64,000 bases of DNA from Desulfobacterales bacterium (lineage in GTDB: Bacteria > Desulfobacterota > Desulfobacteria > Desulfobacterales > UBA11574). The stretch's first letter is position 1; every line of letters starts with the position of its first letter. The stretch lies in contig JAJDND010000020.1 of the NCBI GenBank assembly GCA_022340885.1, positions 17,278-81,277 on the forward strand, written 5' to 3'. Shown here in pieces: positions 45,986-63,843 of this stretch. The position numbers and the translations under genes were made by a program. Under the pieces are notes generated by a model that saw only the letters and a list, made by a program, of their open reading frames with translations, had not been told where the DNA came from and did no database searches.

Positions 45986-47158
45986 ATGAATCAAATCTTT
46001 AGTGATGTTGCAATCATCGGCGGCGGTATCATGGGAAGCGCCGTCGCATATCATCTGAAGCAGGCCGACGCCAATCTCGACGTGGTCGTTGTGGAGATGG
46101 ACCCAACTTATTCCAGGGCGTCGACCACCCTTTCCATGGCCAACGTCCGTATCCAGTTCAGTTTCGAGCAGAACATCCGGATATCCCAGTTTGCCTTCGA
46201 GGTGCTGGAAGATTTCGGAGAAAAAATGGCTGTCGGCGATCATCGACCGGACATCGCTTTTCGACGTGAAGGCAATCTTTTTTTGGTGGACGATTCCAGC
46301 ATACCATCGGCTGAGGCAGCCGTCAATCTGCAGCAAAGCCTCGGCTGCCGCGTAGAATGGTGGACGCCGGAAAAAATAAAGCAAAACTATCCGCTATATG
46401 CGCCGGAACACCTGGCAGGCGGAACATTCGGCTTTCTGGACGGCCATTTCGATGCCTATGCCTTTCTCATGGGATACAAAAAAAAAGCGCGATCAATGGG
46501 AACGCGCTATATCGAAAACCGGGTGATCGAGGTCCTGACCGACGGTTCCCGGGTCAGGGGCGCCCGACTGGCCTCGGGAGAAACTTTGTCCGCCAACTGT
46601 GTGGTCAATTGTGCCGGGGCATGGGCGGCCGAAGTCGCCCGGTCGGCCCGTATAAATCTTCCCGTAGACCCGGTCAAACGGCAAATCTTTGTACTCGACA
46701 CAGCCGTCAAACCCCAGGGTCCCCTTCCCCTGACGGTTCTGCCGTCCGGGCTCTATTTTCGGACCGAAACCGGCGGACGGATCCTTCTCGGAAAATCCAT
46801 GCCCCAGGACCCTGTGGGCTTTGATTTTTCATGGGATGACAAACGGTTTATGGAAATTCTCTGGCCGGAACTGGCCGAATTCGTGCCTGCCTTCGATACC
46901 CTCAAGCTGCTTCGAGGATGGGCCGGCCTATATGCCGTCAATACCCTCGACGGCAACGCAATCCTCGGCGAATGGCCGGAATTGAAAGGTTTTTTTCTTG
47001 CCAACGGCTTTTCCGGCCACGGCCTCCAACAGGCACCCGCCGTCGGCCGATATCTCTCCGAATTGATTTTGAAATTGCCGCGCACACTCGACCTTTCATG
47101 TTTTGGCCCCGAGCGGATCGTCGAAAACAGGCCTTTAAGTGAAAAAGGTCTTGTGTAA
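45986..47158 (+). CDS. FAD-dependent oxidoreductase, DAO family
   Basis: DVAIIGGGIMGSAVAYHLKQ Rossmann motif; C-terminal GLYAVNTLDGNAILGEWPELKGFFLANGFSGHGLQQAPAVGRYLSELI. Confidence 0.88.
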   Translation: MNQIFSDVAIIGGGIMGSAVAYHLKQADANLDVVVVEMDPTYSRASTTLSMANVRIQFSFEQNIRISQFAFEVLEDFGEKMAVGDHRPDIAFRREGNLFLVDDSSIPSAEAAVNLQQSLGCRVEWWTPEKIKQNYPLYAPEHLAGGTFGFLDGHFDAYAFLMGYKKKARSMGTRYIENRVIEVLTDGSRVRGARLASGETLSANCVVNCAGAWAAEVARSARINLPVDPVKRQIFVLDTAVKPQGPLPLTVLPSGLYFRTETGGRILLGKSMPQDPVGFDFSWDDKRFMEILWPELAEFVPAFDTLKLLRGWAGLYAVNTLDGNAILGEWPELKGFFLANGFSGHGLQQAPAVGRYLSELILKLPRTLDLSCFGPERIVENRPLSEKGLV

Positions 47159-47170
47159 CCGTTTCGAAGG

Positions 47171-48073
47171 TTAATGAATACTTCCAATCGAATCTCCCAT
47201 AAGGACATACGTTTCAATATCATTTCTTGTGTTTACACACAAATCCTTGTCAAGCGCTATTCTTCCTTTTTCAAACAACATAACGACCGTGGATCCTCCC
47301 ATTTCAAAATGTCCTTTTCGGTCGCCCTTGGCAACTCGATGACCTGAACGGTATATCTGGCGGATTGATCCGACGGTAAAAGCGCCGATTTCAATCATTG
47401 CAATTCGACCAAAGTGGTCGGAATCGAAGATGGTGAGCGTCCGATAGTTATCGGAGAAAAAGGGAATGAGTCCACGGAGATTGTATGGACCACTTGCATG
47501 GTACTTTCCTTTGATGGATGTCGCTTCGCCCGGAAAACCGGAATCCGGAAAGTGGAAGTGATGATAATCCTTCAGACATAAACGGCTTACAATCATTGAA
47601 CCATGACTGAATTTTGCTACCAGTTTATCACTGAGCAGAAATGAACGAAGATTGAATATGCTTCGTTTGATTCGAAATGTCAAATCAGGATCCAGTGATT
47701 GATAGGCAAGAATCTTTCCGTCCACAGGAGAAATGCACACATCAGGGTCCCAGTTAATCCGTCGCTTGGAGAGATCGAGTTCTCGTCTAAAAAAATCATT
47801 GAAACTCTCAAAGCCTTCGATCGGGCACAACAATTCATCCGTATTTACCTCCATCTTTCTGATGAACGATTCTATTCTTCTTTTACTGAATCCCTGCTTA
47901 TTCATCCAGCCATATAGCTGGGAAATGTATTTATTTCTGAAAACAATGCAGCTTACAAGGTCTCCCATTTTGGAGTTGTATAACCAATATAACAAACCAT
48001 CTGCGTAAACATGCTCCATCCGTAGCATGCTTTCAGCACGATCAAAATATTTGATTGAAATTCTGTTGCTCAT
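47171..48073 (-). CDS. Phosphatidylserine decarboxylase-like protein
   Basis: 300 aa; FNDFFRRELDLSKRRI, ISPVDGKILAY, C-terminal GGSTVVMLFEKG (pyruvoyl-forming GGST motif). Confidence 0.85.
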   Translation of the reverse strand: MSNRISIKYFDRAESMLRMEHVYADGLLYWLYNSKMGDLVSCIVFRNKYISQLYGWMNKQGFSKRRIESFIRKMEVNTDELLCPIEGFESFNDFFRRELDLSKRRINWDPDVCISPVDGKILAYQSLDPDLTFRIKRSIFNLRSFLLSDKLVAKFSHGSMIVSRLCLKDYHHFHFPDSGFPGEATSIKGKYHASGPYNLRGLIPFFSDNYRTLTIFDSDHFGRIAMIEIGAFTVGSIRQIYRSGHRVAKGDRKGHFEMGGSTVVMLFEKGRIALDKDLCVNTRNDIETYVLMGDSIGSIH

Positions 48074-49200
48074 AGATTTAACTCGAAAAGTGCATATTCC
48101 CGGTTTGGATTTTTCACATGTTCCCCCAAGAGTTTCTGAGCTCTGTTATCTCTGGCCATTAATGAAAATATTACCGTTTCATATCCATGTTTCAAAACTT
48201 GGTGAACCATGAAATAACCAATAGCTCGGCCCAATCCGGACTTTTTCTTTTCTTCTTCGGGAGTAATGCCGATTAGATAAAAATTTATTCGGTTTGCACG
48301 CTGTCTGTAGTTAAATAACTTAAAAATTGACAATAGATTATACCTTCCATTCATAGACCGAATGACGTCTGAAATTTCCAAAATAGCCAATGCAAAACCT
48401 ACGATGACATTCTTCTCATTGTAAATAAGCGTAAAAAGTTCCGGATGAAATGCATAGCGGGCTTTTTCAAACAATTGTCTGAACTCTTGCAAGGGAATCG
48501 GCGTGAAACCGGTAAAATCTCTGAAAGACCTTGTTAACACGGAATGAAAATTGCCCAAATTATCCATTAATTGCCGTCTATTCAACTGTTCAAATCGATA
48601 ACCTTCGGTCAGCAAATATCTGTAACGTCGTTCACCAAAAGCAACTATTTTTTGCAGATTTTTATGACCGGTAACCTCCACAGAATCCCAAAAATATTTT
48701 GCAATGAAACCATACTTCCCGAAAAATTCCGGATAATACGGCTTATTATAAGGCTCCCCATAAAAAGGTTTTTGATCAAACCCTTTTGTCATAAACCGAT
48801 ATCCATGCCAGATATCAAAGTTCATCGGACCCCAGACGCGACGGAGCCCTATATCTTCTCGCAGCCATTTTATTGAACAATCTAAAAGGTCTCGAGCGAT
48901 AGCGAAATCGTCGATGCACTCAAAAAAACCAATGGCCCCAACCGGTGTCCCGTCTGTATCCTTTAGATCCTGATTGGACATTGCTGACACCCGTCCGACA
49001 ACTTTTTCACCGGCCGTGGCGAGAAATTGTCTATGACAATTTCCCGGTTTTTGATAAAATGTGAAATCGGGTAAAAATCGGGTGCACATTTCTTTTTTCA
49101 GCGGCGGAATATGATTTTCATCGCCATCATACATTTCATAACCGAATTTTATGAAAGCGTCTGTTTTTGCGGAATCGAATATAAAAGGCTTTATTGCCAC
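48070..49200 (-). CDS. GNAT-like acyltransferase family protein
   Basis: 376 aa; RRVWGPMNFDIWHGYRFMTKGFDQKPFYGEPYNKPYYPEFFGKYGF; overlaps the PSD-like gene by 4 nt. Confidence 0.65.
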   Translation of the reverse strand: MAIKPFIFDSAKTDAFIKFGYEMYDGDENHIPPLKKEMCTRFLPDFTFYQKPGNCHRQFLATAGEKVVGRVSAMSNQDLKDTDGTPVGAIGFFECIDDFAIARDLLDCSIKWLREDIGLRRVWGPMNFDIWHGYRFMTKGFDQKPFYGEPYNKPYYPEFFGKYGFIAKYFWDSVEVTGHKNLQKIVAFGERRYRYLLTEGYRFEQLNRRQLMDNLGNFHSVLTRSFRDFTGFTPIPLQEFRQLFEKARYAFHPELFTLIYNEKNVIVGFALAILEISDVIRSMNGRYNLLSIFKLFNYRQRANRINFYLIGITPEEEKKKSGLGRAIGYFMVHQVLKHGYETVIFSLMARDNRAQKLLGEHVKNPNREYALFELNL

Positions 49201-51845
49201 CGGATTTCTCCTGTTTCTCCATTCATATGTAACAGAGAGGCTTCGGGGATGCGTCTTGTCGCATCTCTGACACCCACAATCGTCGGAATCCCCAGCTCCC
49301 GTCCGATTATGGCAGTATGTGATAAAATACTGCCACGTTCAACAATCAATCCCTTTGCCCGCATCATCAGAAAAACCCATCCCGGATCCGTCATTTCCGC
49401 AATGATGATGTCACCGTTTATCTCTAAATCGGCATCCGGCTTTCTTACGATTTTCGCTCGTCCCGAAACCCGTCCCGGAGAGCAGGCGGTACCCCGAAGG
49501 TTAGCCGCTTTTTCAACGGGCATTGTCTGAAAATCATGATCCTCCTGAATTATCTCTGTATTTATTCCCCGGGTTGTAATACGACTGGGAGGCGTCGAAG
49601 ATCGACCTTGCCGCCGATAACGCTCTTTACGGATGCGAACACTATGCTTGAGATCGAGATCAATAGACGATCTGTTGATCACCGGAAAAATTTCATCCAG
49701 CGCGAGATAAAAAATATCCTCCGGGTGCTCCAGAAGGCCGATCCTGGAAAAAGATCGGCCCATGGAAAGAAAAATTTTTTTCACCAGACCATAGGCTCGG
49801 GTGCGCGCAAACCGCATGTTTTCCCTGTGAACAACACCGTCTCGGATGACACTCAAAAGATATCGAAGGAGACAGCTCGTCGATCGGCTCTCATTGGCCA
49901 ACCGTGGACTTTCTGTCTCGTCCGTCCGACAATTCATGTCTTCGATGTTCTTTAAGTTCATACTCTTATCACATAGAAGGGTCTGCCGAATCACCTGAAT
50001 CAGAATGGTCGGATCATCACGCATCGATTTAGTCTCGAGTTTCAGCTCATGGAGGCTTCTGTCGCCGTATTTTTGAATATGGTTTAAAAACATACCATAG
50101 ATGTCGCTATACTCCGAATTTTCACGAAGAGCCCTGAGAATCTCATCATCATCAAGGTTAAAAAGTGTCTGCAGACCTGAACAGCGTCGTATCTCGTTGC
50201 AGATATTCAAAACAGACCGGACCGGCTTTAAACTCTCCATATCGTCTGCGTGAGACAGAAGGTAATGGAAATGATTTTTCGCCCGAGTGGATCGCCCTGA
50301 TTTGTTGAGAAGCCGATTCATAAGTTCATAGGAGAAGATCAGAAAGATATCATTTTCGATGGTAATCGGCCAGATGCGGAACAATTCAATTTCCAACCCC
50401 TTAAAAATGATATACAATGCTTTGGCTGAACAGGCATCGAAATCGATTGCGGCAAAGTCCTTGTAAATTTTTTCGAATCTTCGATAAAAATGGCGCCGGT
50501 AAAAATCTTTAAAAATGAATCTCAAAAAAAGAGTGGCATAAGAAACGTAAGATGATGGAACCGATTGAGTAACAACGGTCGTATCGTCTTCAATTCCCAA
50601 TATTCGATTGCAGGCAGTTTTGTCCTTTGCGAAAGCTGGACTAAAGGAAACCATACTATACCAGTTGGTCAGATTGTAATAAATTCTGCCGTCAATGTAC
50701 CCGATAAGGGCTTCAAAAATGGATGAACAGTTCTCAATGCGCCTGCGGTTCAGCGTAAGTCGAACCATCGTTCTTTTCATGACATTATCGTAAACATGTC
50801 GTGCAAACGAATATGTCAGCGGTGTAGTAACACCCGGGTAACTTTCAACGATGTTGGAATTATCCCATACAGTGATGTCTCCTGTATCTTTTGTTTTAAA
50901 TGTGATTGGTCGCGTCTGCAACAAGGAAAGCATACCGGTTGCATCGAATGCCCATTCGATATCCTGAGGCTCGCTGAAATTGGACGCAATGGTTTTTGTC
51001 ATAAGAAATAAAGTTTGAATCTCGTCAGAATTCAGTATCGGAGTTTCGGACGCTTTGATAGCGGTGAGTTCCGAGCCGTTATGTGAATTTTCCGACATCC
51101 ACATCTTGAATTTTTTAATATTTATTTGGGATCTCGAGACCTCACCCGTTTTCGGATTTATCCAGTAGGTATCCGTCTCAACCATGCCGGATACCACACC
51201 CTCACCAGTTCCATATCCGCAGGTAATCACATAATTGGAAGTGTTTGAAACCGGGTCTCGTGTAAATATAACGCCGGACTTTTCGCTGGCGGTCATTTCT
51301 TGAACGATCACGGCGACATGAAGAGGCAAGATGGGTATCTTCAGAGCACGACGATAGATAATTGCCCTTTTGGAAAGCGCACTCGCCGCGCATTGTACGA
51401 TTCTATCCATCAATGCCTCTCTTTTTACAAAAAGATAAGACTCTAAAATGCCGGCAAAAGAAGCATTTTCGGAATCTTCAGCGATTGCGGACGAACGCAC
51501 CGCAAAATGAGAAATGTTATTCAAATTTGCATCCAGGTGTTTTCGAACGATCGCATCCAGTGCTTGTCTTGCGGGTACGATAAGTTTTTCTAAAAAAATT
51601 TCTTTGATTATATTCTGGTCATGTTCCTGTAATATTTTTTTCAAATCGATGCGGTGCTGTTCCATTAAATTCGAGAACGCATTGTGTGGAATGACAAACC
51701 AGTGTGGAACTCGCAATCCAAGCTTTGAAAGCTGCCAGAGGTTTGCAGCTTTGTTCCCTACCTGTCCGGGATCAGGGGCGTACGGATCTGAACTCGAATA
51801 AATAACCGCGGCCCGAATCTTTGTCGGATTTGAATTCGGCAACAT
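49191..51845 (-). CDS. Rph/PEP-synthase-like dikinase (ATP-grasp + central domain + C-terminal swivelling His domain)
   Basis: 884 aa; VGNKAANLWQLSKLGLRVP, VRSSAIAEDSENASFAGILESYL, QDIEWAFDATGMLSLLQTRPIT, terminal ERGSILSHTAIIGRELGIPTIVGV; ORF ends at the His domain, no C-terminal PEP/pyruvate barrel. Confidence 0.82.
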   Translation of the reverse strand: MLPNSNPTKIRAAVIYSSSDPYAPDPGQVGNKAANLWQLSKLGLRVPHWFVIPHNAFSNLMEQHRIDLKKILQEHDQNIIKEIFLEKLIVPARQALDAIVRKHLDANLNNISHFAVRSSAIAEDSENASFAGILESYLFVKREALMDRIVQCAASALSKRAIIYRRALKIPILPLHVAVIVQEMTASEKSGVIFTRDPVSNTSNYVITCGYGTGEGVVSGMVETDTYWINPKTGEVSRSQINIKKFKMWMSENSHNGSELTAIKASETPILNSDEIQTLFLMTKTIASNFSEPQDIEWAFDATGMLSLLQTRPITFKTKDTGDITVWDNSNIVESYPGVTTPLTYSFARHVYDNVMKRTMVRLTLNRRRIENCSSIFEALIGYIDGRIYYNLTNWYSMVSFSPAFAKDKTACNRILGIEDDTTVVTQSVPSSYVSYATLFLRFIFKDFYRRHFYRRFEKIYKDFAAIDFDACSAKALYIIFKGLEIELFRIWPITIENDIFLIFSYELMNRLLNKSGRSTRAKNHFHYLLSHADDMESLKPVRSVLNICNEIRRCSGLQTLFNLDDDEILRALRENSEYSDIYGMFLNHIQKYGDRSLHELKLETKSMRDDPTILIQVIRQTLLCDKSMNLKNIEDMNCRTDETESPRLANESRSTSCLLRYLLSVIRDGVVHRENMRFARTRAYGLVKKIFLSMGRSFSRIGLLEHPEDIFYLALDEIFPVINRSSIDLDLKHSVRIRKERYRRQGRSSTPPSRITTRGINTEIIQEDHDFQTMPVEKAANLRGTACSPGRVSGRAKIVRKPDADLEINGDIIIAEMTDPGWVFLMMRAKGLIVERGSILSHTAIIGRELGIPTIVGVRDATRRIPEASLLHMNGETGEIRWQ

Positions 51846-51870
51846 TTATTTCTCCTTCCGTTTTTGCTTT

Positions 51871-52986
51871 TCACTGAATCGGATTGATTTCATAGAGTTC
51901 AAGGTTCGTGTATCCCATGGCCCGGTTTTGCTGAAGTAATTTCGAAGCGAAATCTTTCTTCCGTTTAAAAGCGGTCAATGTATCAGGTGCCACACGATGA
52001 TTTAACAGATTATAATAAGACAATCTTGCATTCGGGCACGCCTTTTTCGATATCTCGTAAAGAAGCGCGATAAAGCTGTCATCTTCGACCCAATCAAAAA
52101 TATTGGATAAATTAAACTTTGAAAAAGTGTTGCATTCGCATCGGTCAAGAAATGATTCGATTTCCTCGTTTACGATGGTGATACGATCGACTCTTCTGCG
52201 GATTATGTCGAAATTGTTTTTCTGAAGATAGGGTGGCATGCAATCCTCACTCGGATAGGACTTGGTCAAGACCCAATGTACAAAATAGTTTTTCCAAATC
52301 GGAAGGTTTCTCAAAACATGATCGGCCTGCTTTCGAATAAGAGGGCCAAAACGAAGCTCCTGAACCAACCGGAAATGGGATGGGTCCATATAGCGGCTCA
52401 TAATCGTTCTGCAAAAGAAAAAATTGAAAATCAATCGCCACCTACGGGAATTCCAAACTTGATCAAAGAAGCGTTTTTGTGTGAAAAGCGCTTTGTGTTT
52501 CAATAGGGCTTCAACCTTCTTCGAACCCAAAAAAATTCGAAGCAATTTGCCGAAATGAAAGAAATAACGATCTTGCGTTCCTTGTAAAAGGACTCCATTT
52601 TTAATTAAAGTACGATGTTGAGACCAGTAAGTGCGTGCGGACAAAGTGAGGCAGCGTTCAAGTTTTTTGAATAAATGAAGGCGATCATTGCAAGGATGTA
52701 CTCCCAGAAAAGATAGCATTTCAGAATATTCCAGCTTCCTGAAGCAAGCAAGTTTCAATTCAAGCAAAAAATTTTGAATGACATTCAGGTCGATGCTCAC
52801 GACACAAAGGGGGTCGTCCAGAAGAAAACCGATACTCAGATCCCCACCAGAAGTAATAGATAGAACATTGTCCTGAGCGGACACGGCCAGGGCACGCTTC
52901 AGTACGAGAGGATCTTCCCAGCAGGTGCTATACCCGATTTTCGAAAAAAATTCGGCCGAAGCCACTTTACTTCTTTTGATTTTCAC
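51871..52986 (-). CDS. BtaA-like (DUF3419) SAM-dependent 3-amino-3-carboxypropyl transferase
   Basis: 371 aa; FFSKIGYSTCWEDPLVLKRAL, VLSITSGGDLSIGFLLDDPLCVVSIDLNVIQNFLLELKLAC, SNIFDWVEDDSF. Confidence 0.78.
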   Translation of the reverse strand: MKIKRSKVASAEFFSKIGYSTCWEDPLVLKRALAVSAQDNVLSITSGGDLSIGFLLDDPLCVVSIDLNVIQNFLLELKLACFRKLEYSEMLSFLGVHPCNDRLHLFKKLERCLTLSARTYWSQHRTLIKNGVLLQGTQDRYFFHFGKLLRIFLGSKKVEALLKHKALFTQKRFFDQVWNSRRWRLIFNFFFCRTIMSRYMDPSHFRLVQELRFGPLIRKQADHVLRNLPIWKNYFVHWVLTKSYPSEDCMPPYLQKNNFDIIRRRVDRITIVNEEIESFLDRCECNTFSKFNLSNIFDWVEDDSFIALLYEISKKACPNARLSYYNLLNHRVAPDTLTAFKRKKDFASKLLQQNRAMGYTNLELYEINPIQ

Positions 52987-53939
52987 AAGCTTACAATCCT
53001 TATTGTTACTAAAAGCGATTGAATAGTTACAATGAATATTTCTGTGGTGGTTTTCAGACCGAACAGAACGGGCTGTTTATTGTAAAAGCTTACATAGGTC
53101 ATTACCATGAAGAGATATACTGCTATCATGTAGAGCAAGATGAATCCGATGACCATGTCGAAATAGAGATAAGTTACGGCAGCTATCGATGCGCCGCTGA
53201 GAACAATCGGAATCACCATCGATAAACGAAATCCCAAAACTTTGGAATAGGTCTGGTACGCGGTTTCGTCCTCTGGACGCCTTATTTTCCGAGCGATTTC
53301 CCAGGACAGCGAAGACCATAAGAAGACTGTTCCAAGAAACAGAACCTGTCCGTTGGGAATCGCCGCTCTCATGTTGTTTTTGTAAATAGAAACGACATAC
53401 AGAAAAAACAGATAAGAGATCGGGTTGTGAGTCAACAGGGCCGTCAGGATGTTTTTGGAAATAAGCTCTTTCAAGAAAAAGTATTTATACATGAAACAGG
53501 CATAGCCGAATGTTGAAAGGAAAATGAAGGTCGAATGAGTAAAAAACAAGTTCAAAATAAAAAGAAACGCTACAATGAGTCCACCTAAAATTTTGAGATC
53601 CGCAATGTGCACGTCGCCTCTGGAGACCGATCTATCCGGAAAATGCACAGGGTCGGTTTCACGGTCTTTCAGTTCGTCCATAATCCTGAGCAATAGCAGA
53701 AACAGTGGAATTGTAACTGCGCCTGAAAAAAGTACGATCTCTGACGGAAAGAACCTTCCATGGTCGGAAAGACTGAGAAGGTCGATCCCGCACCATGCGC
53801 TCATAAAAAAAAGCAGTCCGAATACAATATTGCACGGCGGATACATCTCAGAAAGATAAATACGGATTCGTGCCAAAAAAAATCTTGCGGAATCAGCACC
53901 AATTTGATTCGTTGTATTGTTATGCATATTTTTTTTCAT
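52983..53939 (-). CDS. UbiA-family prenyltransferase-like membrane protein
   Basis: 318 aa polytopic; LRIMDELKDRETDPVHFPDRSVSRGDV acidic motif plus EIARKIRRPEDE second motif; overlaps BtaA-like gene by 4 nt. Confidence 0.75.
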   Translation of the reverse strand: MKKNMHNNTTNQIGADSARFFLARIRIYLSEMYPPCNIVFGLLFFMSAWCGIDLLSLSDHGRFFPSEIVLFSGAVTIPLFLLLLRIMDELKDRETDPVHFPDRSVSRGDVHIADLKILGGLIVAFLFILNLFFTHSTFIFLSTFGYACFMYKYFFLKELISKNILTALLTHNPISYLFFLYVVSIYKNNMRAAIPNGQVLFLGTVFLWSSLSWEIARKIRRPEDETAYQTYSKVLGFRLSMVIPIVLSGASIAAVTYLYFDMVIGFILLYMIAVYLFMVMTYVSFYNKQPVLFGLKTTTEIFIVTIQSLLVTIRIVSL

Positions 53940-53945
53940 TCAAAT

Positions 53946-56903
53946 TTATAAAACGATACTTGTTTTCAGAGGTCCTAATTCAAAACCATGGTACTTTCCC
54001 AACAGATCAATCAACTCAATGTCTTTAATCTCTAAACTTCCAATGGAAAAATTTTCCCGGATTCCAGACAGACCGAGCAGCATTGTCTCGGCCATACAGG
54101 CAAAAACCTGACCGCTCGGCAAGGGGTAAGCCGGTATCTTTATTGCTTCCCGGTTGGGAAGTTTCACAATCCCTCCTGTGAAATACATTACGTCTTTTCT
54201 TCTTTGAATGAGCGAGGGATCCGTGGCGGATGGAACGGAGACATCGCATATAATGGCGTTTTTTTTCACCAAACCTTCTCGAATGATCTTTTCGTGAGAA
54301 TTCGACACAGCCACAATGACATCTGAACGGGCAATGGACTCGATGTCGGTCGAGACTGAAATCATATCATTGATCATGTTTTTCTTTTTAATGCCGATGG
54401 CCTCCCAAGCTGCTTTCGGATCCGTATTTTCATCGACAAGTATTTTAACGAGCGGGTTTTTTGACAACCCTTCTACAACTCCCGTCGTTGCACCCGAAGC
54501 AGAGCGGCCTTCAGACAATATCCGGTATGCATTTTGAAAAATCTGAAACCGAATATTTTCCAGACGTTCGAGAGATCCGGAATTTGAGGATCCAATGAGA
54601 TTAATTTTTGAGACATAATTCGAGATCATTAAAGAATAGGAAGCCCCAATGTTCCCTGCAGCCCCAACTAAAGACAATGAAATATGAGAGGGGTCCAGAC
54701 CCCTCATGAATACCGCTTTCATGATGGCCCTGACGGCTATCGCTACTGTATTGGAATTGCCGGTTGTAATCGTGAGCCCGGGATTCCTGATTGATAGTCC
54801 GTTATTGCTGATGATGGATGTGTACTGCCCCAGTCCGACTACTTCGCATCCCATTTCGTATGCCGCCCGGACGGCGTCTTCGACCATATCGAGAGCCGGT
54901 GAACTGCATGGTTTTTTCAAAAATTCTACCATGTGACGAGAAGTTACGGGAACAAGGATGATATTGAAATTTATTTTCTTACCGGAGCCGGATGTAATAT
55001 CTGTAGAACCGACATGCATCGGTTTTGCAAAGGACATCATATTTCGTATAAATCTGTCTTGACGCATGGGGGAAGCCACGTCAAACGAAGGGTCAACGGC
55101 TTTTAATTGATTTTCATGAACATAGTGAACGAGAAAACCGACTTTGGGAATAGATTTTTCGTTCCCATGTATTTTTATGTCTCTTGATTTCGGCTTTTTA
55201 TGATGTTTTGAAATACCGCCAACATCCGTGACGAACCGGAGAAGTTCAAGGGCACGCTTTTTCGACAACACTTCACACAATTGTTCAAATGCATCAAAAA
55301 CTTTGTCAAGATCTCCGTATGAAATATATGCCGACGGCTCAAGGCGAAGCACACAGGGAGCGCTCAAGGTAGGGAAAACTCTCAGGTTATGACGGTGGAA
55401 AAGATAGCCCGAAGCGAAGTATCCAAGCCAGCCAGCCTTGTCGATCTCGCTTATAATCAATGAATCTGAATTTTCTTGAGACGCGAGCACAACGCCCATC
55501 ATGAGACCTTTTCCACGGACTGTATCAATGACACCGGGATATTTCTCAATTAATTGTGTAAGCCCCCTTTTAAGGTAAGACCCCTTTTCCTTTGCCATTT
55601 TCAAGATATGGTCCCTCTCCAACACATCGAGGACCCTGTTCCCGACAGCCGATGAGATAGCATCTTCCGCAAAAGTGGAGGCGTGAAGGAGCGAAAATTC
55701 ATTTTGGTATCGATCCCGGTCGACCAGCACTGCCGAAATCTTTGCGATACCCCCACCGAGTGATTTTGAAAGTAAATAGACATCCCCGACGACGCCGGCG
55801 TATTCCGATGCGAAAAACTTTCCGGTCCTTCCAATTCCAGACTGGATTTCATCAAAAATCATCGGAATCCCATATTCGTCACAGACTCTCCTGCACTCTT
55901 TCAAGAAGTTTTTTCCGATCTGTATGATTCCCCCTTCTCCTTGAATGGGTTCCACAAAGAACGCCGCTATGTTGCTAATGTATTTTTGTTCAATTTCCAG
56001 ACCTGCGTTTTCAGTCCACTTCACAGCGTAATAATGTTGCAACGATTTCTTGAAAGTCGTTTCAATTTCTTTTTTGTCTAAAGAATCCGTAAAATGTGAT
56101 TTCTGAAGGAGTCCGGAAAAAGGTCGGCGATAATCCACATTATAGGTCAATGATAAAGATCCGACGCTTTTTCCGTGAAAAGCGCCTCTCAGTGCGATGT
56201 AAACCGGAGACCGACTAAAAACATTTAAATTATGGCGCTCGATCATGTGTAGACATTCTTCCAATGAATCAGGAATAATCTCTCCTCTGAAGAGATTCGT
56301 GTGATGAAATACATCTGGGGCTACTATATAGTGTTTATCATGAAGTATTTTCTTTGTGTCCGAGAACTTACGATTCAAATTTTTCTTCAATTTGTCTATT
56401 TTCTTTATTCGCTCTAACTCGGAATGTTTCATGGCTGTGTCCACGGCATCAGCACCCGAATTGCCGAATATGCAGACATAGGACTTGCCGCTGATGCTCG
56501 AGAGTCTCTTGGACAGGCGCTTACCCAGAAGCCCGGATTCGGCACGAACCGAACCCTGGACAAGATTCGGTCGATGGTGTTTTATATTGTCCAAGAGGGC
56601 CGCTATAATGTCCGGATGATTGTGTCCCAAAAGGCACGCTCCGAACCCGCCCACCAGGTCCAGAATTTCGACTTCTTTGCCAGAACGGTCTGTGTAGTAA
56701 AGATGGTCCAAAAGTCCCTTGTTGTAGACCACGTCCAAACCGAGAAGCCCCAGTTGGTTTTTCAATGCGGGTTTTGTGAAATGAAAATACGAATCGACTA
56801 TCGATTCAGGATTCTTGGAATAAAAACCGTTTTCGAGCGGCAACCTGTCTGTACCTGAAAAAAAATTTGTACGGGTTGTTTTTGGAAAATCAAGTGTCAG
56901 CAT
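53946..56903 (-). CDS. Class-III PLP aminotransferase fused to AAR-like long-chain acyl thioester reductase domain
   Basis: 985 aa; N-terminal FVEPIQGEGGIIQI, FDEIQSGIGRTGKFFASE, LLSKSLGGG; C-terminal GLGQYTSIISNNG, TTGNSNTVAIAV, LVGAAGNIGASYS, YFTGGIVKLPN, QVFACMAETMLLGLSGIRENFSIGSLEIKDIELIDLLGKYHGFELGPL. Confidence 0.82.
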   Translation of the reverse strand: MLTLDFPKTTRTNFFSGTDRLPLENGFYSKNPESIVDSYFHFTKPALKNQLGLLGLDVVYNKGLLDHLYYTDRSGKEVEILDLVGGFGACLLGHNHPDIIAALLDNIKHHRPNLVQGSVRAESGLLGKRLSKRLSSISGKSYVCIFGNSGADAVDTAMKHSELERIKKIDKLKKNLNRKFSDTKKILHDKHYIVAPDVFHHTNLFRGEIIPDSLEECLHMIERHNLNVFSRSPVYIALRGAFHGKSVGSLSLTYNVDYRRPFSGLLQKSHFTDSLDKKEIETTFKKSLQHYYAVKWTENAGLEIEQKYISNIAAFFVEPIQGEGGIIQIGKNFLKECRRVCDEYGIPMIFDEIQSGIGRTGKFFASEYAGVVGDVYLLSKSLGGGIAKISAVLVDRDRYQNEFSLLHASTFAEDAISSAVGNRVLDVLERDHILKMAKEKGSYLKRGLTQLIEKYPGVIDTVRGKGLMMGVVLASQENSDSLIISEIDKAGWLGYFASGYLFHRHNLRVFPTLSAPCVLRLEPSAYISYGDLDKVFDAFEQLCEVLSKKRALELLRFVTDVGGISKHHKKPKSRDIKIHGNEKSIPKVGFLVHYVHENQLKAVDPSFDVASPMRQDRFIRNMMSFAKPMHVGSTDITSGSGKKINFNIILVPVTSRHMVEFLKKPCSSPALDMVEDAVRAAYEMGCEVVGLGQYTSIISNNGLSIRNPGLTITTGNSNTVAIAVRAIMKAVFMRGLDPSHISLSLVGAAGNIGASYSLMISNYVSKINLIGSSNSGSLERLENIRFQIFQNAYRILSEGRSASGATTGVVEGLSKNPLVKILVDENTDPKAAWEAIGIKKKNMINDMISVSTDIESIARSDVIVAVSNSHEKIIREGLVKKNAIICDVSVPSATDPSLIQRRKDVMYFTGGIVKLPNREAIKIPAYPLPSGQVFACMAETMLLGLSGIRENFSIGSLEIKDIELIDLLGKYHGFELGPLKTSIVL

Positions 56904-59455
56904 AAAATCTGAACCTCCCCTTTACTTCCGTCAATCATAACTCTTTGCCCATCCACCAGATTATCTGTTGCTCTTTGGACCGCTAAAACCGCAGGAATTC
57001 CATATTCTCGGGCAATTACAGCGGCATGGGACAGTATACCCCCTGTTTCGGTTATCACACCTGATATCAATGGGAACAAAGGGGTCCAGCCCGGATCGGT
57101 GAATCGCGTGACCAGTATATCTCCTGCCCGAAGTTTATCGGCCTCGCTGATGTCATGAATTACCCGAACCACGCCTTTCGTCTCTCCGGACGAACAGGGG
57201 ATGCCCTTGTATTTTTCACGCGTAACGAAACTATTTTCAGTTCGTTCATACCGATAATGCCACCGCCGGCCGATTTCGTTGGGATTTTCAAAGTGACGAA
57301 AGGACAACATATATGTTTTATTGGCTCTGATACGCCGTCGTATCGATTCTAAATCAGGGCTTTTGTCTCTCATAAGGTCGATAACTTCCGGGTAGGAAAG
57401 GTAGAAAACATCGGTCTCTTTATCCAAAATTTTTCTTTGCATCATTCTGCGTCCGACTTCCAGAGACACACTGCGTATAAGATTGTATGCCTGCGTTGAC
57501 CAATCTCGAACTTCTTCTTTGTACCAGGTGTGTAACCGGACATTATTTAGTTTCTTCATGAAGCGCATTCTCTGGATACTTCTAAATCCTGAAAAGAATC
57601 GACGCGACTTATCAAGTTCATTTTCGTAAATGCTTCGGTTGCTTGAGACATGGGCTTGCGGGTTATTCTCATCCTCAAGTCTGATATATGCCTGAAGTGT
57701 TTCAATAATAAATGTTGGATCTTCAGACCACCGAGGCATCCTGAGGTCCAATTCCCGGGTACTGTGATGACCGTATTTTTTGATAAAATTTTTCAATGTT
57801 TTCCCAAGGATCGGGTGGGCAAAAATTTTATCGATCTCTCCGGTTTCTAAAATACATATGGTTTTTGGATCTTCCCGAACATAACGGCTGATTTCCCACA
57901 GCTTAAATAATGGAAGGACGGGTTTGAGGGGTCGTAAGGCTGTAATCAGCGGTAAATATCGAAAACCGGCTCCTTCTTTGTTTGCTTTGTCGAAGACGGC
58001 CTTGAACTCCAGTCGGGCGTTTGCCGTGTTAAAAATGGTTTTAAAGTAAGCTGTCTCCAATTCAAAGTGGCGATGGCAAACAAGATCTACGAATAACGCT
58101 TCCAAGTCTTCTTCTGTCATTTTTGAAAGGTTTTTCGCCTTGATCAATTTCAAATAGCGTTTAAATTGCATGACGGCTTTTTGTGTTTTCATGTGTTGAT
58201 CATAATACGTCCTTTTTAGCGCCACCATTACAGGAATTGCCTGCAGTGCACCCATTAAACTGAAAGGCGTGACCACGCCATGAGTTTCATAGGTTATTTC
58301 TATTCCTAGATCTTGATCGAAATTTCGTTCATTAAATCCGGGCATTCTTGCAAGCGCCTTTTTTACAGCACCTACGTTCCAATAAGGACGTCCAAAATAA
58401 ACTTTAGACCAACAAGTTTTATCGTTTCTTGGAATTAGGCGGATCTCTTTTAGATAAGTGTTCATTGCAGATTCGAACACGCGCTTATAGAGGGACCACA
58501 TGAAAGGCGCCACCACCTCTGAAGAAACGCCTCCATCCCGAAAATCCGCAGTGGTCCATTCTCCGTCTATTCCCTGGTATCCCATGGCCGTAATCGGACG
58601 GGTCTGCAGGATATATACGCTTCGATCCGCAACCGCCCATTCAATATCCTGTGGACAACCATACATCGTCTGTATTCTCATCGCCATGCGGACCAGATCC
58701 CAGAGAATTTCTTCATCAAAAAAAAGGGGTGTCCTCTGTTTGTTTTGTATGTTTTTAAAAGCCATACATTTATCGGGTCCGTTTAAAACTCCCATCCGAC
58801 CTCCTGAAATATCTTGCGATACGATTTTCTCCGAGAAACCGTTAATCAGATAGCGATACGGCTGAACCTTACCGGCAACCAGGGATTCGCCAAGCCCTTT
58901 TACAGCCTCCACTACCAGCTCATGATCATTGCCGGTGACTGGGTTCACAGTGAACAGCACGCCCGAGACATCCGGTTGAATTTGTTTCTGGACTAAAACT
59001 GAAAGATTCAATGTATCCCCTGAAATTTTATTTCTTCTTGCATATTCCTGGACCTGTTTTGAAAATTGGGAATTAAAGCAGGATTCGATCGCATTAAAAA
59101 GGTCGTTTTCTCTCCCAACGTTGAGAACCGTACCGTATTGTCCGGCAAACGATTTTTTTTCCCGATCCTCTTCAGCTGCAGAGGACCGCACGGCCACAAG
59201 TCTACCAAGCATACGAAATCCAGACAGAATCTCATCAGTGATCTGCTCATAAAGAACGTTTTCATCCATCGCGCTTTTTGATCCCGATCCTTTCTTGGAA
59301 TCCAACCCTTTTGAGATGATTTTCCGACAAGTTGAATGGGTTATTACAAACCCATTGGGGACCGGAAAGTTCGCTTTTTTCAGGCGAGATAGCTCAAAGG
59401 CTTTTCTGCCAACTTCTTGGCTGTCATTTATCTTTATTTCTTCGAACCACTTCAT
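56897..59455 (-). CDS. Second Rph/PEP-synthase-like dikinase
   Basis: Likely start MKWFEEIKIND at 59455 (GAGG upstream; listed ORF starts at 59557); VGRKAFELSRLKKANFPVPNGFVI, VRSSAAEEDREKKSFAGQYGT, terminal TGGILSHAAVIAREYGIPAVLAV. Confidence 0.82.
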   Translation of the reverse strand: MKWFEEIKINDSQEVGRKAFELSRLKKANFPVPNGFVITHSTCRKIISKGLDSKKGSGSKSAMDENVLYEQITDEILSGFRMLGRLVAVRSSAAEEDREKKSFAGQYGTVLNVGRENDLFNAIESCFNSQFSKQVQEYARRNKISGDTLNLSVLVQKQIQPDVSGVLFTVNPVTGNDHELVVEAVKGLGESLVAGKVQPYRYLINGFSEKIVSQDISGGRMGVLNGPDKCMAFKNIQNKQRTPLFFDEEILWDLVRMAMRIQTMYGCPQDIEWAVADRSVYILQTRPITAMGYQGIDGEWTTADFRDGGVSSEVVAPFMWSLYKRVFESAMNTYLKEIRLIPRNDKTCWSKVYFGRPYWNVGAVKKALARMPGFNERNFDQDLGIEITYETHGVVTPFSLMGALQAIPVMVALKRTYYDQHMKTQKAVMQFKRYLKLIKAKNLSKMTEEDLEALFVDLVCHRHFELETAYFKTIFNTANARLEFKAVFDKANKEGAGFRYLPLITALRPLKPVLPLFKLWEISRYVREDPKTICILETGEIDKIFAHPILGKTLKNFIKKYGHHSTRELDLRMPRWSEDPTFIIETLQAYIRLEDENNPQAHVSSNRSIYENELDKSRRFFSGFRSIQRMRFMKKLNNVRLHTWYKEEVRDWSTQAYNLIRSVSLEVGRRMMQRKILDKETDVFYLSYPEVIDLMRDKSPDLESIRRRIRANKTYMLSFRHFENPNEIGRRWHYRYERTENSFVTREKYKGIPCSSGETKGVVRVIHDISEADKLRAGDILVTRFTDPGWTPLFPLISGVITETGGILSHAAVIAREYGIPAVLAVQRATDNLVDGQRVMIDGSKGEVQILC

Positions 59456-59866
59456 AATCGATCCTCGTTCTTTTGACATAATAAAAAGCAAATGCAGTGC
59501 CAATGCGAGCCGGCAGTATACACTTTCTGTATCGAGCATTATCCGAGAAGTGAACAAGGCTTGAACGACTTGATGAAATTACCTTATTATCAATGAAATA
59601 CTAAGGCACTTCTAAAAGTTGTTAGAAATGAAAAGCTTTTATTTTTTTAACCCGGAAATTGTTTTAAATCAAAAAAGAGAAGCAAAAGGGTGCAAGATTA
59701 TTTGACATGTTTTCGAAAGTTTTAAGAGGATAAAGTTAAATCAGCAGGTTATAGCATGGCAAAAAAAGCTTACGACGCAAATTGAATTGCACCGTTTTTT
59801 AGGAGGTATCTTGTAGCTTGCTTTTTGTTCTTGCGTATTATTTAAGAGACCTTCTATATTTACGAG

Positions 59867-61285
59867 CTATTTGTTTTTCATCTTCAGACGCCGGTTCAGT
59901 GCCTGTCGGGTGATGCCCAGGCTCAATGCCGCAATGGACTGGTTGTCATGTGAACGTTTCATGGCTTCATCAATGAGGAGTTGTTCCGCCTGTTTGAGTG
60001 TCGGCAATTGCTCGGAAAAAGTCAGTAAAACCTTCTTCTCTTCAAGCAGCCGGTTTGATTCCGTTTCAAAAAATGGATGCTTATTATAGATATGGGATTT
60101 GAAGCTCTCCATGGACAGCTTGCCGGATTTATGACTGCTGACCGCATTGAAAACCATAGATTCGAGTTCTCTGATGTTTCCGGGGAAATGGAAGGTCGTA
60201 AGGAGGATGGTCAGCTCATCCGGCGGCGTTGGTTTACTTTTATTCAATATGTTCGATGCCTTTTCCAAAAAGTGCTCCAGCAGAATAGTCAGATCCTCCA
60301 AACGCTCACGAAGGGGCGGCACATGGACATGATGGTCACAAAGTCTATAGTAAAGATCTTTTCGAAATACACCGGAAGATTTCAGTTCTTCCAGATTCTG
60401 ATTGGTGGCGACAATTATTCGTGCACTGGACTTTTTGGCGACGTCGGACCCAATCGGGAAAAAATCACCGTCCTGAAAAAGTCGTAAAAGTTTGACTTGT
60501 GACGAAGCGCTCAGGTCGCCGATCTCATCCAAGAACAGTGTACCATCCGAGGCTTGTTCTATCAAACCGCTGCGAGCCTGATCTGCGCCGGTAAAGGCGC
60601 CTTTTTTGTGTCCAAAGAGCGTATCCCCAAAAACATGATCGTCTAAGCCGGCCACATTTACAGGCACAAAAACACCCTCACGATCACTTAAAACGTGGAC
60701 CGCCTTGGCAATCAGTTCCTTCCCGACGCCGGTTTCTCCGGTTATCAGAACAGGCCGCGGGCTTTTAGAAATTGCCTCGACATACTGAAAGATAGACCGC
60801 ATGCCGGCATTATGAGTCACGATTTCCGAAAAGGCCTCAGGATGCTCCAATTTGTCGGACAGGACATGGGCCTTTAACAATCTGTTTTCCCTTTGCAATT
60901 CACGTCGTTCCACAGCCCGTTTTACACCTCCGACAAGGCGACTTTTTTCAACAGGTTTTACCATATAGTCAAATGCCCCGTTTTTCATGCATTTTACGGC
61001 GGTTTCCACATCGTTTGCGCCGGTAATAACAATAACCGGAATTTCTGGGAAATCGCTGTTGATCAGCAGGAGCAATTCTTCACCGGACAAATGCGGCATT
61101 CTCAAATCAAGGAGCATGACTTCTGCTTCACCGGCAGCAAGGGCCGGCATCACATCACGGCTGTCTTGACAACGAACAAAATGATTCATATTTGCAGAAC
61201 GGAGCGCAATCTCGAAACTATTCAAAGCCTGCTCTTCGTCATCCACCAAAAAAATCGGGAGCTCGGGGTATATAGACGATTTCAT
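59867..61285 (-). CDS. Sigma-54-dependent response regulator (NtrC family)
   Basis: 472 aa; receiver domain, GETGVGKELIAKAVH Walker A, GAFTGA loop, GTLFLDEIGDL Walker B, C-terminal Fis-type HTH. Confidence 0.94.
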   Translation of the reverse strand: MKSSIYPELPIFLVDDEEQALNSFEIALRSANMNHFVRCQDSRDVMPALAAGEAEVMLLDLRMPHLSGEELLLLINSDFPEIPVIVITGANDVETAVKCMKNGAFDYMVKPVEKSRLVGGVKRAVERRELQRENRLLKAHVLSDKLEHPEAFSEIVTHNAGMRSIFQYVEAISKSPRPVLITGETGVGKELIAKAVHVLSDREGVFVPVNVAGLDDHVFGDTLFGHKKGAFTGADQARSGLIEQASDGTLFLDEIGDLSASSQVKLLRLFQDGDFFPIGSDVAKKSSARIIVATNQNLEELKSSGVFRKDLYYRLCDHHVHVPPLRERLEDLTILLEHFLEKASNILNKSKPTPPDELTILLTTFHFPGNIRELESMVFNAVSSHKSGKLSMESFKSHIYNKHPFFETESNRLLEEKKVLLTFSEQLPTLKQAEQLLIDEAMKRSHDNQSIAALSLGITRQALNRRLKMKNK

Positions 61286-63843
61286 TCCATTGTCCCTTTC
61301 AAAATCTTGTTTTCCTGATTTAGCGGCAAGAGAATCTCTATGGTTGTACCATTGCCGACTTTCGAATCGAAGTTCATTCGGCCGCCATGTTCTTCCACAA
61401 TTCTCGACGAAATAGACAAACCCAGCCCAACACCTCCAGAATCATTCTTGGTAGAAAAAAACGGGTCCGTAATCTGCGGCAAATCCTCGGGAAGGATCCC
61501 CTTTCCTTCATCCCGAATCTTGACCAAAATGCAATCTTTCTCGGCGTTACAGCATGTTGATACAAAAATGCCCTTTCTGGAATCCTCAAGCGCCTGACAG
61601 GCATTTTGTATCAAGTTGACAAAGACCTGTTCGAGCCGCTGAAAATTACCGGTCAGGATCGGCAAATCCTTGCCGTAGTCCACTGAAAAGCAATCTGTAG
61701 ACTCCTTTATCATATTCGAAATAAGAGAAATGGCAGATCGCAAGACTTCATTGATATCCACCGATTGCTTTGCTTCGGAAACCTCCTTCCTAACGAAACT
61801 TTTCAAGTCATCGACAATCTGCATGATCCGTTTGGAACCATTCAATATGCCTGAGAATAACACCGGAATCCTTTCACGCATCTCGGAGTATTTCATGCCA
61901 CCGATTATAAAATCGCCGTTCTCCGTATAGTATTCTTCCAGGATCGGCAGTGCACTTTGCCATGCTTCCTTGAGCGTAGGTGTATTTAGGAGAATAAAAT
62001 TGTTGGGGTTGTTTATCTCATGCGCCACACCGGAAACCAGTGTGCCCAACGCAACCATTTTGCTGGCCTGAAAAAGTTGCTCTTGATGTAATTTTTCCTG
62101 TTCTTGTATCCGCTTCCGCTCGGTAATGTCGCGTCCAACACCTCGGAAGCCGATGGGCTCACCTTTTGAATCATAGGAAAGTGCTATGGAAGTTTCGATA
62201 AATTTTCTTGTTCCATCCTTTCCAATGGTTTCCCAATCCGTTGCCAGGGCGGGTTTCCTCGTTTGGTATACCGTACTAAAAGCCTGAAATGCCTTTTCAG
62301 CGGTGTCTTCAGTCATAAACTGACGATTATTCATGCCGATCAATTCTTCTTTAGAATAACCGAGATGCCGGCACAGGGCCGGATTAACAAAAGTCAGGTT
62401 CCCAGACAAATCGACCTCATAATATCCGTCCTCCATGCTGTTGAGAATAGCTCTGTATTTCTTATCACTTTCGTGCAAAGCCTCCTCAGCTTGCACGCGA
62501 TCGATAATTTCTCCTCTGTAAGCATGGTAAGTCTCTTTCAGCTCTTTATACTGTATTCCGACGTTTTGAAATGCCTTTTTTAATCGAGCAGAAAGCAGAA
62601 ATGCCTGTGAAAAAATAAAAATGCAAAGACCCAACGGTACCAGGTAACCGGTTTGTATGATATTTTCAGCGTACATCATGTCATTGACGGCTGACAAAGC
62701 CAAAATAATAAACCCAAAAAGAAAAATGAATGCGCCGTCTCTCTTTCTGATCGAAGCAGCTATCAGGATATAAACCGCGTATATAATGACGATGATAGTG
62801 AGCACTTGATAGGTCTGGAGTGTATAGGTGAAAATTCTTGCCGGTGTAAAGAGTACGGTGCATGAAAAAGCGAGCCCTGCGATAACAATCAGGCGAACGA
62901 TTCGCTTTGGAACTTCCTTGGGGAAAAAGGATTGGATGAATAGCGTGAATACTGGAACTGAAAGATAAAAAGAAAGATATTCCATCTTGATCAGTACTTC
63001 CCATGGAATGTTTGGGAAAAAATGAATGATATACTTTTCGCCGGTGGTAAGAAGCCGTAGAATCACCAGAAAACAGAAAATACTGAAATACAGACCTGCG
63101 TGATCCTTTTTGTTGATCATAAAAAGGCATAGATGATACAACGCCATAATGAAGATACAGCCAAATACGAACAGTTCAAAGCCGAATCTGTTATCCTTGA
63201 TTTTTTGGATATCTGTATCGTCTCCCAACCGGATAATTTCCCAGGGCCCCCCTCGCCTGTGATCAAAATTGGATATCTGAAGAATCATCTCGATCTGATT
63301 TGATTCGGTCTTAAAATCCAAAATTTGAGGGAAATATCGAGGGACTGTCGTTTCACGAGTTTTTCCGGCGATCCCGACTGAACATATTTTTTGGCCATTG
63401 AGAAAAAGGGTGTATGCGGTACCCATGGTTAAAAATTTTAGCGCCAGGCTTTGGTGTTCCCTTTCTTTGCTCAAGAGAATTCTCAAGCGAAATGTGGCAT
63501 ACCCATCGCCGTGTAGTTTTTTCCCGTTCATTTCAAAGCTGTTCCAAAACCCGGGTACTGTTAGGAATCCCGTTTTTTGAGGTGGAACCGGCAGATTAAA
63601 ATCCGATGGCGCCAAGTGCCGTTTCCAGTAGAACTCATACTCACCGGAAAGATCTACGATGCCATCGCGTTGAAAATTCCATTCTGTGAGATCAAGAATA
63701 CCGTTGACGGCTTTCGGAGGAGTCTTTCTCTTGAATTCCTGTTTGCAGGAAATTGAAAACAATAAGAAAAGGCTTATCAAGATCAAATAATTTTTATGTG
63801 AATTTGATCTCATGACCGGCTGTTTGCAGGAGTCGGATAACAT
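61282..63843 (-). CDS. Sensor histidine kinase with 7TMR-DISM extracellular/7TM region and PAS domain
   Basis: 853 aa; DISMED2-like N-terminal domain, ~7 TM segments, PAS, VSGVAHEINNPNNFI H-box, GVGLGLSISSRIVEEHGG G-box; overlaps RR gene by 4 nt. Confidence 0.88.
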   Translation of the reverse strand: MLSDSCKQPVMRSNSHKNYLILISLFLLFSISCKQEFKRKTPPKAVNGILDLTEWNFQRDGIVDLSGEYEFYWKRHLAPSDFNLPVPPQKTGFLTVPGFWNSFEMNGKKLHGDGYATFRLRILLSKEREHQSLALKFLTMGTAYTLFLNGQKICSVGIAGKTRETTVPRYFPQILDFKTESNQIEMILQISNFDHRRGGPWEIIRLGDDTDIQKIKDNRFGFELFVFGCIFIMALYHLCLFMINKKDHAGLYFSIFCFLVILRLLTTGEKYIIHFFPNIPWEVLIKMEYLSFYLSVPVFTLFIQSFFPKEVPKRIVRLIVIAGLAFSCTVLFTPARIFTYTLQTYQVLTIIVIIYAVYILIAASIRKRDGAFIFLFGFIILALSAVNDMMYAENIIQTGYLVPLGLCIFIFSQAFLLSARLKKAFQNVGIQYKELKETYHAYRGEIIDRVQAEEALHESDKKYRAILNSMEDGYYEVDLSGNLTFVNPALCRHLGYSKEELIGMNNRQFMTEDTAEKAFQAFSTVYQTRKPALATDWETIGKDGTRKFIETSIALSYDSKGEPIGFRGVGRDITERKRIQEQEKLHQEQLFQASKMVALGTLVSGVAHEINNPNNFILLNTPTLKEAWQSALPILEEYYTENGDFIIGGMKYSEMRERIPVLFSGILNGSKRIMQIVDDLKSFVRKEVSEAKQSVDINEVLRSAISLISNMIKESTDCFSVDYGKDLPILTGNFQRLEQVFVNLIQNACQALEDSRKGIFVSTCCNAEKDCILVKIRDEGKGILPEDLPQITDPFFSTKNDSGGVGLGLSISSRIVEEHGGRMNFDSKVGNGTTIEILLPLNQENKILKGTME

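Follow-up and report, generated by a model that had tools for sequence, protein, structure and literature searches.

Organization of the operon

The window, a stretch of 64,000 nucleotides from a Desulfobacterales bacterium of the sulfate-reducer type, is part of a 3.55 Mb draft genome and contains an operon of seven genes on the minus strand, extending from position 59455 to position 47171. In order of transcription, the genes are as follows.

56897..59455, minus strand: DIK1, a dikinase of the Rph/PEP-synthase type associated with the AT-AAR gene (PPDK_N and PEP-utilizers domains; LSH motif)
53946..56903, minus strand: AT-AAR, a fusion of a TamH-type class III transaminase and an acyl-ACP reductase (Aminotran_3; matches to 6jzq and 4ppm; alignment)
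52983..53939, minus strand: UbiA, a divergent integral membrane transferase (NF010118; DExKDxxxD; nearest structures DGGGP synthase)
51871..52986, minus strand: BtaA-like DUF3419 protein, by family a SAM 3-amino-3-carboxypropyl transferase (PF11899, 220 bits; alignment)
49191..51845, minus strand: DIK2, a second Rph-type dikinase, which travels with the UbiA gene (PPDK_N and PEP-utilizers domains; DIK2 clade)
48070..49200, minus strand: GNAT, a predicted tandem GNAT-fold N-acyltransferase (weak Acetyltransf_1 match; AlphaFold model and Foldseek)
47171..48073, minus strand: PSD, a PSD-type pyruvoyl enzyme, the second in the genome (PF02666, 164 bits; NF001941, 325 bits; GGST motif)

Every junction is an overlap or a gap of at most 25 nt: overlaps of 7 nt (DIK1/AT-AAR), 4 nt (UbiA/BtaA-like), 10 nt (DIK2/GNAT), and 4 nt (GNAT/PSD), and gaps of 6 nt (AT-AAR/UbiA) and 25 nt (BtaA-like/DIK2). 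The seven consecutive minus-strand reading frames reported in a preliminary description of the sequence were all found in place, tightly packed in a single operon, and the family assigned there to each gene was retained, UbiA and GNAT being below the Pfam thresholds by sequence and backed by other evidence. The start of DIK1, previously placed at position 59557, corresponds to a TTG extension and was moved to the ATG at position 59455, since the orthologues start at the matching methionine and the sigma-54 promoter (59502-59487) falls inside the longer reading. A gene for an FAD-dependent oxidoreductase (DAO; window 45986-47158, plus strand) converges on the end of the operon and lacks a counterpart at this position in the congeneric genomes G001 and G002.

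Regulatory features

Four features were identified upstream from the operon.

59487..59502, minus strand: sigma-54 (-24/-12) promoter, TGGCACTGCATTTGCT, conserved in five genomes at a distance of 45-47 nt ahead of the first start codon
59776..59791, minus strand: candidate upstream activator site TGCAAN6TTGCR, TGCAATTCAATTTGCG, located 336 nt before the ATG of DIK1
59867..61285, minus strand: NtrC-type sigma-54-dependent response regulator, the candidate regulator (Sigma54_activat and Response_reg)
61282..63843, minus strand: sensor histidine kinase that probably works with this regulator (recognized by inspection of the sequence)

The promoter has the form TGGCAC-N5-TTGCT in four operons and TGGAAC-N5-TTGCT in that of L032, another member of the Desulfobacterales. 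The exact pattern occurs at 12 sites in the 3.55 Mb genome, versus one site for the reversed pattern. The TGCAAN6TTGCR palindrome was present 335-341 nt upstream from the start codon in all five orthologous operons, and the window contains no second copy (chance expectation for the whole window, 0.41). The gene for the NtrC-type regulator lies directly upstream from the operon and has an 84% identical counterpart at the same place in G001; no such regulator adjoins the operon of L032.

Conservation of the gene set

The full seven-gene set is syntenic in the two congeners G001 and G002 (67-78% identity), the first three genes are present on a truncated contig of G018, and L032 harbors six of the seven genes, PSD being the one missing. 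The named relatives with the same operon are metagenome-assembled genomes of Desulfobacterales/Desulfobacteraceae. Further clusters were sought by scanning named genomes for the AAR domain and searching the neighborhoods with profiles, which revealed the following gene sets.

L038/G036: AT-AAR, DIK1, CarS, MMPL, GNAT, UbiA, PEMT, DIK2
L047: AT-AAR, DIK1, DIK2, CarS, GNAT, UbiA, PEMT
L087: PSD, DIK2, UbiA, AT-AAR, DIK1, CarS
L035 (Riflebacteria): BtaA, UbiA, DIK1, AT-AAR, MMPL
L070 (Nannocystineae): UbiA, DIK2, AT-AAR
L043 genome (Sericytochromatia): UbiA-DIK2-BtaA-MMPL on one contig, DIK1-AT-AAR on another

Subsets of the genes are thus also found in Riflebacteria, Sericytochromatia, and Myxococcota, and in other lineages of proteobacteria. 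The conservation of gene order in relatives and the presence of parts of the set across phyla indicate that the seven genes are not a chance neighborhood. The proposal of a lipid pathway had been made dependent on synteny in relatives and on the absence of HMM assignments to unrelated families with non-lipid roles. It withstood both checks: the two congeners have all seven genes and L032 has six of them, and the assignments obtained were lipid- or amine-related. A role in anti-phage defence was rejected, as PADLOC returned no match for any of the seven genes.

The transaminase-reductase fusion

AT-AAR combines in one chain a class III transaminase domain (Aminotran_3, 222 bits), whose nearest relatives are CrmG and PigE, with a C-terminal AAR-type reductase, which matches the structure of cyanobacterial AAR (6jzq; E 6.6e-14) and also the reductase part of PigE (4ppm). 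The PLP-binding lysine (K380) and the catalytic cysteine of the AAR half (C936) are invariant in an alignment of six proteins extending down to 32% identity. The same domain order and the same two catalytic residues are found in PtTamH of the tambjamine YP1 pathway which, together with its partner TamA, converts C12 acid into C12-ACP and then into C12 amine in vitro with NADH and glutamate (PMC9594044). In some relatives, dikinase genes also occur in the same loci. In contrast to PtTamH, AT-AAR is encoded with UbiA, BtaA-like, GNAT, and PSD genes, and without bipyrrole genes. Because PtTamH makes C12 amine from C12-ACP, conversion of acyl-ACP to amine is, by analogy, the likely first step for AT-AAR, a step that is therefore not unprecedented. 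Proteins of Chitinimonas and Paucibacter have been named as TamH homologues (PMC9594044), and AT-AAR was placed near them in the AT-AAR tree. The AT-AAR proteins of UbiA-dikinase clusters are scattered over this tree, implying that the association either is ancient or was acquired again.

Two distinct dikinases

Both DIK1 and DIK2 contain the PPDK_N and PEP-utilizers domains according to Pfam, and the phospho-histidine motif LSH was found in the alignment of DIK1, as in members of the PEP-synthase-type dikinase superfamily. In the dikinase tree, the AT-AAR-linked DIK1 proteins and the UbiA-linked DIK2 proteins form separate clades (support of 100/100 and 100/99, respectively), and a third strongly supported clade comprises proteins from other UbiA clusters. 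The two dikinases share with the ligases PigC, TamQ, and RedH, and with Rph (PMC4844700), an ATP-grasp domain, a central substrate domain, and a swivelling histidine domain with the phospho-histidine motif, but each belongs to a clade of its own and scores well under the family cut-offs. DIK1 did not reach the equivalog cut-offs for Rph (354 versus 999) or RedH (354 versus 1350), was also far below that for PigC, and DIK2 had lower scores than DIK1 against the Rph and RedH models, far under the cut-offs. A function in rifampicin resistance was discarded based on these scores and on the gene context. The PigC and RedH models are annotated as ligases; phosphate transfer is the reaction of Rph (PMC4844700). 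DIK1 and DIK2 could thus be kinases of a small molecule instead of ligases.

A divergent UbiA-family enzyme

The UbiA protein scored 29.6 bits against the Pfam model, under the cut-off of 34.2. The first aspartate-rich motif is present as the variant DExKDxxxD, in which the aspartate residues are invariant; the second is absent, and RKIRxPxxExxYxTYS is found in its place. In a profile search, the nearest solved structure was archaeal digeranylgeranylglyceryl-phosphate (DGGGP) synthase, in agreement with the predicted model (pLDDT 83), which is closest to the DGGGP synthase structures 7bpu and 6m31. The subfamily is rare, as it was detected in 6 of 395 Desulfobacterota genomes; in the five carriers other than the window genome, the gene adjoins a dikinase gene in every case. 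UbiA was present in 8 of 14 genomes of a set hand-picked for AT-AAR loci rather than drawn at random, and relatives were found in both Planctomycetota genomes tested.

BtaA-like, GNAT, and PSD proteins

The DUF3419 protein contains a SAM-site motif which, together with CWEDP, we take to be BtaA motifs. The operon shares this family with the BtaA/BtaB route to the betaine lipid DGTS but has no gene for the N-methyltransferase BtaB, PSD being present instead. The acceptor of the BtaA-like enzyme is probably not diacylglycerol.

The GNAT protein scored 17.9 bits against Acetyltransf_1, below threshold, and sequence searches gave no convincing relative in the PDB. Its AlphaFold model, of moderate confidence (pLDDT 73), is predicted to adopt a tandem GNAT fold (best Foldseek match in the PDB, E 1.1e-11). 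Homologues are found elsewhere beside AT-AAR or HMG-CoA-reductase-like (HMGR-like) genes, those adjacent to AT-AAR being in Flavobacteria and Rokubacteria.

PSD matched PS_Dcarbxylase and contains the pyruvoyl-forming motif EMGGSTVV, but did not reach the cut-offs of the NCBIfam PSD equivalogs (325 versus 371 for NF001941; 108 versus 112 for TIGR00163). An ordinary PssA-PSD pair is encoded elsewhere in the window genome (G000:C147), so the operon copy is a second and probably specialized enzyme. PSD was found beside BtaA only in the genus of the window, and may therefore act on an ordinary phosphoserine lipid.

Variation around the UbiA-dikinase core

In other loci, the genes beside the UbiA-dikinase core encode CarS-like proteins (PF01864), PEMT (PF04191), CDP-alcohol phosphotransferase (PF01066), and PSD, which strengthens the lipid theme originally proposed; PssA-like genes are also among the partners. 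BtaA-like genes were present in seven UbiA loci (window, L030, L033, L032, L035, L119, and L141) and CarS in six (L038, L047, L087, L120, L122, and L123), but never both in the same locus. This distribution hints that the BtaA and CarS modules are alternative sources of the polar head of a common core lipid, but is suggestive only, since the loci come from few lineages, include several close relatives, and lie in part on short contigs. CarS was not found in the draft genome of the window.

An HMGR-like enzyme precedes the core in G406, G425, G496, and G416. Of the proteins of G406, G425, and G496, one was scanned and carries a fused kinase-like domain; its sisters are equally long. The fusions are located at L120:4287-6998 (scanned), L122:6819-9530, and L123:12826-15537, in genomes where HMG-CoA synthase was not detected. 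A mevalonate function for these genes was rejected because no HMG-CoA synthase was found in the six genomes searched, although the HMGR catalytic motifs look intact on reading. In G405, the core is accompanied by a male-sterility-type reductase domain, a DAG-kinase domain, and a cytidylyltransferase. These alternative first enzymes can be read as reducing a thioester to an alcohol or amine that would feed the same UbiA-dikinase step. In G416 (L119:9463-15436), UbiA, DIK2, and BtaA-like genes are followed by a gene for an unassigned 442-residue multi-pass membrane protein, the HMGR-like gene being upstream.

Proposed pathway and alternatives

The membrane lipids of bacteria are generally assigned to one of a small number of core types. 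The existence of a dedicated lipid pathway at this locus is well supported, and the operon probably specifies, under sigma-54 control, a route from a fatty amine to a polar-headed lipid. By homology to the enzyme assayed in vitro, AT-AAR would reduce a long-chain acyl-ACP to the aldehyde and transaminate it to a primary amine (step 1). DIK1 would use ATP and its phosphohistidine domain to join the amine to a partner (step 2), as PigC/TamQ-type dikinases do in prodiginine and tambjamine pathways. DIK2 would produce a (pyro)phosphorylated substrate with which the UbiA-type enzyme would attach a second chain, and GNAT would acylate an amine, resulting in a core lipid that has two chains and a free hydroxyl (step 3). 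The BtaA-like enzyme would add a 3-amino-3-carboxypropyl head from SAM (step 4), and the PSD-like enzyme would decarboxylate an amino-acid head to an amine (step 5). In sister clusters, CarS, CDP-alcohol transferase, PSD, or PEMT would replace steps 4 and 5 and, in some of them, an HMGR-like enzyme giving an alcohol would replace step 1. Only the first step has a tested close homologue; the chemistry of the later ones is inferred from that of the families, and the exact order of steps 2 to 5 is doubtful.

The product is most likely a lipid based on a long-chain amine, with a head that derives from SAM and is trimmed by PSD. It is conceivable, though not probable, that this product represents a new lipid class with a long-chain-amine core, built by a dikinase-UbiA alkylating pair in which the dikinase provides a (pyro)phosphate leaving group, and carrying an aminocarboxypropyl head from SAM that is then decarboxylated to aminopropyl. 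If so, the core would be neither diacylglycerol nor a sphingoid base. A gene set present across phyla that combines a fatty-amine synthase with archaeal-type lipid enzymes and swappable betaine- or phosphoethanolamine-type heads would add one to the bacterial core lipid types and might account for unassigned lipids of anoxic environments. It would also mean that dikinases and UbiA enzymes have a joint function that is new. The preliminary suggestion of a pathway for an unusual membrane lipid or amine conjugate is partly sustained, by the lipid theme, the synteny, and the families, but the fusion has a precedent in TamH. We found no paper describing this gene combination within the open-licence literature; the preliminary description had missed the PtTamH counterpart of the fusion. 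The enzyme families are known; their assembly, the two-dikinase architecture, and the exchangeable head modules look undescribed.

Joining of a fatty amine to a small scaffold by a PigC-like dikinase, to form a soluble secondary metabolite of the tambjamine/prodiginine type decorated by the lipid-like enzymes, would fit the TamH-like AT-AAR, nested near the Chitinimonas and Paucibacter homologues, and the 354-bit RedH match of DIK1. We consider this rather improbable: no pyrrole (MBC), PKS, or NRPS genes were recognized in the operon and its immediate neighbors, DIK1 is far under the RedH and PigC cut-offs, and the partners (UbiA, CarS, PssA-like, PSD, PEMT, and BtaA) belong to lipid head-group synthesis. 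A ceramide-like (sphingolipid-like) lipid is also unlikely. In this reading, AT-AAR would make an amine or amino-alcohol on which GNAT would act as an analogue of bacterial ceramide synthase, the alcohol would be phosphorylated by a dikinase, and head-group enzymes would follow. The operon does share a GNAT-type N-acyltransferase and lipid head-group genes with bacterial ceramide synthesis (Spt, bCerS, CerR), tandem GNAT homologues accompany AT-AAR in Flavobacteria and Rokubacteria, kinases and cytidylyltransferases lie beside the core elsewhere, and potential sphingolipid producers are reported among Desulfobacterota (PMC11334938). However, neither serine palmitoyltransferase (Spt) nor CerR is encoded in the operon, the amine would come from transamination, and the presence in G405 and G406 of separate lipid kinases next to DIK-UbiA suggests that DIK is not the lipid kinase.

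The proximity of UbiA to DGGGP synthase, together with the CarS-like, CDP-alcohol transferase, and PSD genes of sister clusters and the HMGR-like genes of some, raises the prospect of an archaeal-style isoprenoid ether lipid, with UbiA as DGGGP synthase, CarS as CDP-archaeol synthase, and PSD as archaetidylserine decarboxylase. Such a product is quite unlikely. Of the 15 cluster-bearing genomes searched for GGGP synthase (PF01884), 12 gave no match and three gave only weak partial matches; the window genome G000 (draft about 89% complete) had no match. HMG-CoA synthase was not found in the six genomes mentioned above; the second aspartate motif of UbiA is replaced; no CarS was detected in the window genome; an acyl-derived amine step is present; and AT-AAR would have no role. 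Adjacency by chance of unrelated housekeeping or resistance genes (rifampicin inactivation by Rph, quinone prenylation), functions that the Rph and UbiA families do include, is contradicted by the synteny and is highly implausible in view of the conserved order, the overlapping genes, the shared sigma-54 promoter, the co-inheritance across phyla, and the distance of both dikinases from the Rph cut-offs.

Other clusters containing AT-AAR

AT-AAR and DIK1 occur together in L062, L084, and L102, in genomes in which no UbiA was found. Scanning identified an uncharacterized nucleotidyltransferase (PF14907) in L062 and L102; in L084, it showed a P-loop kinase-like protein. The cluster at L036:3116-14638 (same place as L027, G062) encodes AT-AAR, four ketosynthase-like proteins, an MMPL exporter, a carrier-protein-like ORF, and a short-chain dehydrogenase-like protein, the ketosynthase, carrier, and dehydrogenase calls being made by eye; its product looks like a polyketide-derived amine. 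Two Flavobacterial clusters (L056:4411-17361 and L064:4227-15276) encode two proteins that by eye resemble B12/radical-SAM enzymes, AT-AAR, and GNAT, with an MMPL exporter in L056, and possibly specify another amine lipid.
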